From NCBI GenBank assembly GCA_013178015.1, contig JABLXR010000008.1, positions 1 to 64,000 on the forward strand: a stretch of DNA of 64,000 nucleotides, read 5' to 3'. Made by a program: the position numbers and the translations under genes. Shown piece after piece: positions 42,955-43,429 of this stretch (position 1 is the stretch's first letter; every line of letters begins with the position of its first letter). The DNA is from Anaerolineae bacterium. Lineage in GTDB: Bacteria > Chloroflexota > Anaerolineae > DRVO01. The notes under the pieces are model-generated. The model saw only the letters and a program-made list of their open reading frames with translations, did no database searches and was not told the DNA's origin.

Positions 42955-42994
42955 AATAACAGAAGAGCCCTCGTCCGTTCAGGGACGAGGGCTC
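42955..42994 (-). terminator. T-box-controlled terminator before leuS
   Basis: GAGCCCTCGTCC (42983-42994), 6-base loop, complement (42965-42976), then TTCTGTTATT on the minus strand. Its 5' arm shares the CCCT used in the antiterminator, so the two forms exclude each other. It is also the only terminator after the two tRNA-Ala genes. Confidence 0.92.
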
Positions 42995-43035
42995 GCTCGC
43001 GGTACCACCCTGCTTGGCGGTGCATCAGGCTAAGG

Positions 43036-43107
43036 TGGAGCTGAGGGGATTTGAACCCCTGACCCCTTGTCTGCCAGACAAGTGCTCTCCCACTGAGCTA
43101 CAGCCCC
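43036..43107 (-). tRNA. tRNA-Ala (anticodon GGC), nested in the leuS T-box leader
   Basis: 72-base cloverleaf. Acceptor GGGGCTG/CAGCTCC contains the G3-U70 alanine identity pair; anticodon stem CTTGT/ACAAG around the loop CTGGCAG gives GGC; D-arm GCTC/GAGC with GG in the loop; T-arm AGGGGTTCAAATCCCCT. The discriminator A is followed by CCT, so the full CCA is not encoded. It lies between the Stem I/II part and the antiterminator of the Leu T-box, same strand. Confidence 0.95.
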
Positions 43108-43312
43108 AGATGTCGGACGTCGGGCGCACCGCCCGCTCGAAGGTGTGTAACGTCACCGCTCGGCGCCACTTACTACGATTCAGCGGCGCGGCTCGGGGGC
43201 GAGTTCGGCCTTGCGGGCGGCCTCCGGCGCCCTCGCCGGGGTCCCACCGCTCCACCCGGCTCTCTGCGAGGCTGGCCTAGTACTCCCCGTCACAGCCTTT
43301 GCGCTATTCGGC

Positions 43313-43388
43313 TGGTGGAGCTGAGGGGATTCGAACCCCTGACCTCCACAGTGCGATTGTGGCGCTCTCCCAACTGAGCCACAGCCCC
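43313..43388 (-). tRNA. tRNA-Ala (anticodon CGC)
   Basis: 76 bases with encoded CCA. Acceptor GGGGCTG/CAGCTCC (G3-U70), anticodon stem CCACA/TGTGG around ATCGCAC giving CGC, normal T-arm with TTCGAAT. First gene after a strong promoter; the T-box leader begins 10 bases after its CCA with no promoter in between. Confidence 0.95.
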
Positions 43389-43400
43389 AAAGCAAAGTTC

Positions 43401-43429
43401 ATTGTACCGCGAGGCCAGCCGAGTGTCAA
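43401..43429 (-). promoter_or_regulatory. Strong sigma-70 promoter for tRNA-Ala(CGC) - T-box - tRNA-Ala(GGC) - leuS - ridA
   Basis: Minus strand TTGACA (43424-43429), 17 bases, TACAAT (43401-43406): a perfect -35 and five of six in the -10. The predicted start is about six bases before the first tRNA. Confidence 0.85.

Follow-up and report, generated by a model that had tools for sequence, protein, structure and literature searches.

Upstream of leuS in an Anaerolineae genome lies a leucine T-box leader whose Stem III carries an entire alanine tRNA gene in its apical loop. The locus is encoded on the minus strand of a 64,000-nucleotide stretch of contig JABLXR010000008.1 (assembly GCA_013178015.1, positions 1 to 64,000), referred to here as the window (Table 1). 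The layout itself, an intact T-box and an intact tRNA, the covariation of Stem III around that tRNA, and the recurrence of the arrangement across phyla can all be read directly from the letters. We posit, with a probability of about 0.72, that a working leucine T-box holding a working tRNA-Ala(GGC) in its Stem III loop, with tRNA-Ala(CGC) ahead of it, is made as one constitutive transcript whose leader is also a tRNA precursor. In such a nested design, a single RNA would have to serve as a switch and, at the same time, as a tRNA precursor in need of cutting.

Table 1. Features of the leuS leader and its surroundings, in transcript order (positions in the window)
Feature	Positions	Strand	Basis
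Sigma70-type promoter TTGACA-17-TACAAT, for the whole unit	43401..43429	-	Consensus scan, 11/12
tRNA-Ala(CGC), first gene of the transcript, CCA encoded	43313..43388	-	ARAGORN; kept before the T-box in class relatives
Leucine T-box leader, entire	42978..43302	-	RF00230, model 1-219, 55.2 bits, E=6.6e-11
T-box Stem I with AGAGA and GGUG elements	43191..43302	-	RF00230 alignment
Specifier codon CUC (leucine) in GAACUCGCC	43201..43203	-	RF00230 alignment; motif in 63/66 related loci
Stem II and IIA/B segment up to CGUUA	43148..43190	-	RF00230 alignment
GAGCG purine motif and Stem III 5' arm GGCGGUG	43127..43138	-	RF00230 alignment; covariation across relatives
Nested tRNA-Ala(GGC), last A of CCA not encoded	43034..43107	-	ARAGORN; RF00005, 70.5 bits
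Stem III 3' arm CACCGCC and AA	43014..43022	-	RF00230 alignment; covariation
T-box motif GGUGGUACCGCG, antiterminator 5' side with UGGU bulge	42998..43009	-	RF00230 alignment
Intrinsic terminator hairpin, exclusive with the antiterminator	42965..42994	-	Terminator scan: 12 pairs, then TTCTGTTATT
leuS, leucyl-tRNA synthetase, 817 aa	40481..42934	-	Open frame; homologues in 99/100 relatives

The case for a T-box begins with the Rfam model, which aligns to the leader from end to end in one match spanning a 104-base insert. This full-length alignment contains Stem I with its specifier loop and distal AGAGA/GGUG elements, and it places all the discriminator elements – GAGCG, Stem III, AA and the UGGU bulge; the terminator, exclusive with the antiterminator, lies upstream of leuS. 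A CTC specifier and leucine specificity had been proposed from the bare sequence, and the covariance model places Stem I and CUC just there. The specifier motif is kept in 63 of 66 related loci, and the genome encodes a tRNA-Leu(GAG) ending in ACCA, which matches the CUC specifier and fits the UGGU bulge. The window scores 55.2 bits against a gathering score of 93, with the tRNA read within the Stem III-loop insert, whilst four relatives of the same layout (L077, L090, L148 and L084) pass the cut-off at 93.7-125 bits and three further ones reach 70-90 bits; a nested tRNA helps to explain the poor scores of some T-box leaders. Since every T-box feature that could be checked here is present, the window's bit score excepted, we take the locus to be a T-box. 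Its best explanation, judged from sequence, is a functional transcription-attenuating leucine T-box, predicted to respond to uncharged tRNA-Leu.

The tRNA within it looks no less complete. ARAGORN and RF00005 agree with the sequence-only reading on an intact tRNA-Ala(GGC), the cloverleaf being unbroken and the G3-U70 pair visible in the sequence. Its 3' end is encoded as ACCU, and CCA is likewise not encoded in 29 of the 90 nested tRNAs among the matches listed and relatives, a count that includes the window's own. It is the sole tRNA with a GGC anticodon among the 46 found in a genome estimated to be 95% complete. In a set of 26 genomes, picked mostly for their nested layout, 19 matched a GGC-tRNA signature, once each and at the leuS leader tRNA (five of these matches were verified by sequence); among the 19, G002 no longer has the T-box. 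A single match, again at the leuS leader tRNA, came from each of four further genomes, three of them nested and one in tandem outside the T-box, and the signature was absent from three genomes whose Stem III is without an intact tRNA. By these marks the nested tRNA is a real gene, predicted to be transcribed, processed and charged, and it is apparently essential; transcription of an essential tRNA may rest on a riboswitch leader.

Where exactly does this tRNA sit? The sequence-only reading had placed it in the T-box linker; instead, the Stem III helix (GGCGGUG at 43133-43127 with CACCGCC at 43022-43016, GAGCG before and AA after) encloses it in its apical loop. Stem III is part of the discriminator that senses aminoacylation, and RRGNG-Stem III-AA is the Stem III motif of that discriminator (PMC7583486). 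In most loci a helix of 5-11 bp directly flanks the tRNA, with RRGNG upstream and AA downstream. With the arms placed by their flanking motifs and not by pairing (the first two rows are exceptions, a choice having been made there between two candidate motifs), pairing is seen in 81.6% of cells as against 59.9% when shuffled, and 7 of 7 pairs carry changes on both sides. Slid controls pair at 31-51%, and whole-arm shuffles of overlapping sets give 305 against 230 ± 8 and 182 against 131 ± 6. Minimum-energy folding returns the bracketing helix in 67 of 84 cases, compared with 53 of 84 with shuffled trailers, and was set aside as too weak a proof, so that the helix rests on covariation. In most Bacillota, only a few bases separate Stem II from the tRNA, and all of them are T-box elements. 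The spacers between Stem III and the tRNA are long in the window, at 19 and 13 bases, which makes a tight leader-trailer helix less convincing here than in Bacillota.

The arrangement is far from confined to one genome. Searching 84,980 species genomes with a pattern that joins a tRNA T-arm to the T-box motif gave at least 120 matching stretches; among the first 80 of the matches listed, nearly all those with a tRNA in place carry tRNA-Ala(GGC), and those that are long enough lead to leuS. Taken together, the matches listed and relatives hold at least 90 distinct loci in which tRNA-Ala(GGC) is flanked by a CUC specifier on one side and the T-box motif on the other, and the nested design occurs in at least 80 genomes from several phyla. 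Named loci in this set come mainly from Bacillota and from Chloroflexota, Thermomicrobia among the latter, with one or two records apiece from Coprothermobacterota, Armatimonadota, Caldisericota and Actinomycetota, and one labelled 'Proteobacteria' that is probably misbinned; three hosts are cultured, namely Desulfofundulus thermosubterraneus DSM 16057, Syntrophomonas palmitatica and S. wolfei subsp. methylbutyratica. A strict pattern matched 25 of 400 sampled Chloroflexota genomes (0 with the reversed-pattern control) and 37 of 199 genomes from the phylum of Desulfofundulus (control 1), counts that probably underestimate the nested layout because this pattern misses variants such as GGTGGTATCGCG or ACCACG. 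An assembly error, which would have told against the sequence-only reading had relatives revealed one, and a single-genome oddity are both ruled out by the same layout in many relatives. Several candidates were rejected: L116 (Arg), L133 (Ser), L143 and L145 (both Gln) have no Rfam T-box and are chance neighbours, L083 is a tRNA-Ala(GGC) beside a chance T-box-like motif with no T-box, and in the T-boxes L087 and L110 the T-arm is a chance resemblance.

Natural variants take the design apart. In the window's class, the 30 closest LeuS loci comprise 15 that are nested, seven with both tRNA-Ala genes before the T-box, four with neither element within the searched reach and three on contigs that end too early; L012, which belongs to the window's family and to these 30, keeps the tRNAs and terminator and has lost the T-box. 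Around Desulfofundulus, 13 of 30 loci are nested, and in three the T-box has no intact tRNA (L224, whose Stem III is a plain GGGTAAAACGTCTTTACC; L243; and L219). About ten of these 30 have a tRNA before leuS without a recognisable T-box, the inspected ones with their own promoter, and the remainder are unclear or absent. In part of the Desulfofundulus phylum (L203, L205, L210, L215, L216, L218 and L222), a tRNA-Ala(GGC) with its own promoter and a terminator precedes leuS, again with no recognisable T-box. The Stem III loop of L219, about -340 to -240 from leuS, holds an apparent decayed tRNA, and no GGC tRNA was found by pattern in that genome. With Stem III empty in some loci and filled by a decayed tRNA-like loop in another, the tRNA outside the T-box in others, and the T-box lost in yet others, each part can evidently exist alone.

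Once the search was extended past 1.5 kb, the nested element was often found ~1.7-3 kb upstream of leuS with another gene between, and the apparent lack of a tRNA near leuS in many relatives was discarded as an artefact of the 1.5 kb reach. The intervening genes, as named from sequence, include an acyl-CoA ligase in L241 (Bacillota) and a branched-chain aminotransferase in L233 (Chloroflexota). In the LeuS tree, Chloroflexota and Bacillota fall largely into separate parts, each with nested loci, and the tree's 17 changes overstate losses because states were scored within 1.5 kb. This distribution suggests that the nested layout is ancient and has been lost repeatedly; lateral transfer is possible.

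How, then, would the unit be transcribed? A single promoter for the unit, and a T-box terminator doubling as that of a tRNA operon, had both been proposed beforehand, and the scans bear this out: between 42900 and 43650 there is one promoter-like site (0.1 expected by chance) and one terminator-like hairpin, those of Table 1. With this shared terminator and single promoter, the nested tRNA would be transcribed whether or not leuS is read. In the window, the consensus scan found no promoter-like site just before the T-box motif, between the nested tRNA and the T-box sequence, where one would have counted against that proposal, and none in 43312-43035, between the tRNAs. These results bear on an alternative with two independent genes, in which a separate promoter within the Stem III loop would drive the nested tRNA and no tRNA would ever be made from the riboswitch transcript. 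In L031, the Stem III loop does contain a promoter-like site (TTGACG-16-TACAAT), immediately ahead of the nested tRNA, and several Bacillota loci consist of a promoter, the tRNA and leuS without Stem I. However, the stretch between the window's tRNAs is free of such sites, and the few bases before the tRNA in most Bacillota are all taken up by T-box elements, so we consider independent genes improbable here. In the Bacillota relatives L206 and L223, the promoter lies directly before Stem I.

T-boxes decide during transcription, and RNase P and 3' nucleases cut tRNAs out of longer transcripts. We propose that the switch comes first and processing second. The sequence-only reading had named this order as one possibility, the other being a switch that processing itself would reset. 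Stem I would bind tRNA-Leu(GAG) cotranscriptionally, and the choice between antiterminator and terminator would fall within seconds of synthesis, ahead of RNase P. RNase P and 3' processing would then free tRNA-Ala from terminated and read-through RNA alike, and excision would trim the leuS mRNA to a short 5' end and detach Stem I with its bound tRNA. If the decision does precede processing, every transcript would yield tRNA-Ala and only the read-through ones leuS mRNA; the terminated leader would not be wasted, since it would supply an essential tRNA. By pairing leader with trailer in the pre-tRNA, Stem III would keep the two halves joined and may hold back early cleavage, considering that RNase P is slowed when bases beside its cleavage site are paired, as in a leader that pairs with the 3' end of the tRNA (PMC9433436). 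In the window, with its long spacers, this delaying or holding role is the least certain part of the proposal.

Perhaps processing is itself part of the regulation: RNase P could compete with the leucine decision, or bound tRNA-Leu could alter access to the nested tRNA, coupling alanine tRNA supply to the leucine state. Stem III being both a part of the switch and a leader-trailer helix speaks for this, as does G(-2)U(-1), which can pair with A73-C74 and slows RNase P (PMC9433436); it precedes 35 of 90 nested tRNAs compared with 17 of 93 others (p=0.003, uncorrected for kinship and suggestive only). Yet the window's tRNA is preceded by CU, and the empty Stem III loops of L224 and L243 work as T-boxes by all signs, and we regard such regulation as unlikely. 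We also entertain Stem III as a shared control, locked in the tRNA-Leu-bound antiterminator, where it would delay RNase P, and opening to processing in the terminated leader. The leucine state would then set both leuS mRNA processing and tRNA-Ala(GGC) supply, with excision ending each cycle; we hold this to be doubtful. Or could the T-box be dead, or the nested tRNA a regulatory pseudo-tRNA, one whose ACCA end, for example, is presented in cis to the T-box bulge? The window's score under the Rfam cut-off would fit, as would the encoded ACCA near the UGGU bulge in most relatives. Relatives of the same layout nevertheless reach 125 bits, the specifier and Stem III are under selection, and no other GGC tRNA was found in the genome. 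Pairing in cis is itself unlikely because CCA is so often not encoded, in the window as elsewhere, and the whole explanation strikes us as very improbable. We thus favour a working T-box with a working tRNA inside it, switching first and being processed second.

Set beside a leuS-type transcriptional T-box as modelled by RF00230, this leader shares Stem I with CUC, Stem II, CGUUA, RRGNG-Stem III-AA, the UGGU bulge, the antiterminator and the terminator; it differs in holding a complete tRNA gene, in need of excision, in the Stem III apical loop, and in having a second tRNA before Stem I. In the E. coli tRNA-tufB operon, tRNAs and an mRNA share one transcript and are parted by RNase P and 3' processing, but there the tRNAs precede the gene and interrupt no regulatory RNA, whereas here the tRNA interrupts a riboswitch. 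The nearest published idea is tRNA-Sec nested in selB, a tRNA inside a functional RNA whose maturation destroys the host message (PMC8124441); the host there is a protein-coding frame, and here a riboswitch that would be cut after its control point. Translational T-boxes with insertions show that Stem III tolerates inserts, as it does here, and the review of these insertions names no tRNA among them (PMC7583486). We found no description of a T-box with a nested tRNA in the open-access full text searched. The sequence-only statement that no T-box with a functional tRNA inside had been described therefore stands within the open-access literature. We consider the nested-tRNA T-box a T-box variant, new as far as the open literature shows.

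The usual picture of a T-box is that of an unbroken RNA which grips a tRNA by both ends. In the present case, a large T-box family, found in Bacillota, in Chloroflexota and in records placed in several further phyla, appears to be interrupted by an excisable tRNA, so that one can test directly whether the riboswitch decides before or after RNase P cuts.

Other T-box and tRNA loci of the same genome deserve a brief mention. A tRNA-Val(GAC) lies 15 bases before a thrS T-box (G000:C40:32396-32706; L059, L004); the two may share a transcript and are not nested. The tRNA-Leu(GAG) expected to bind the leuS T-box is encoded divergently from a serS T-box (G000:C91:3472-4162; L068, L008). Lastly, the top-scoring T-box of the genome (L001, G000:C87:9418-9728:-, 112 bits) lies ~500 bases before a creatininase-family-like open frame, an unusual target.
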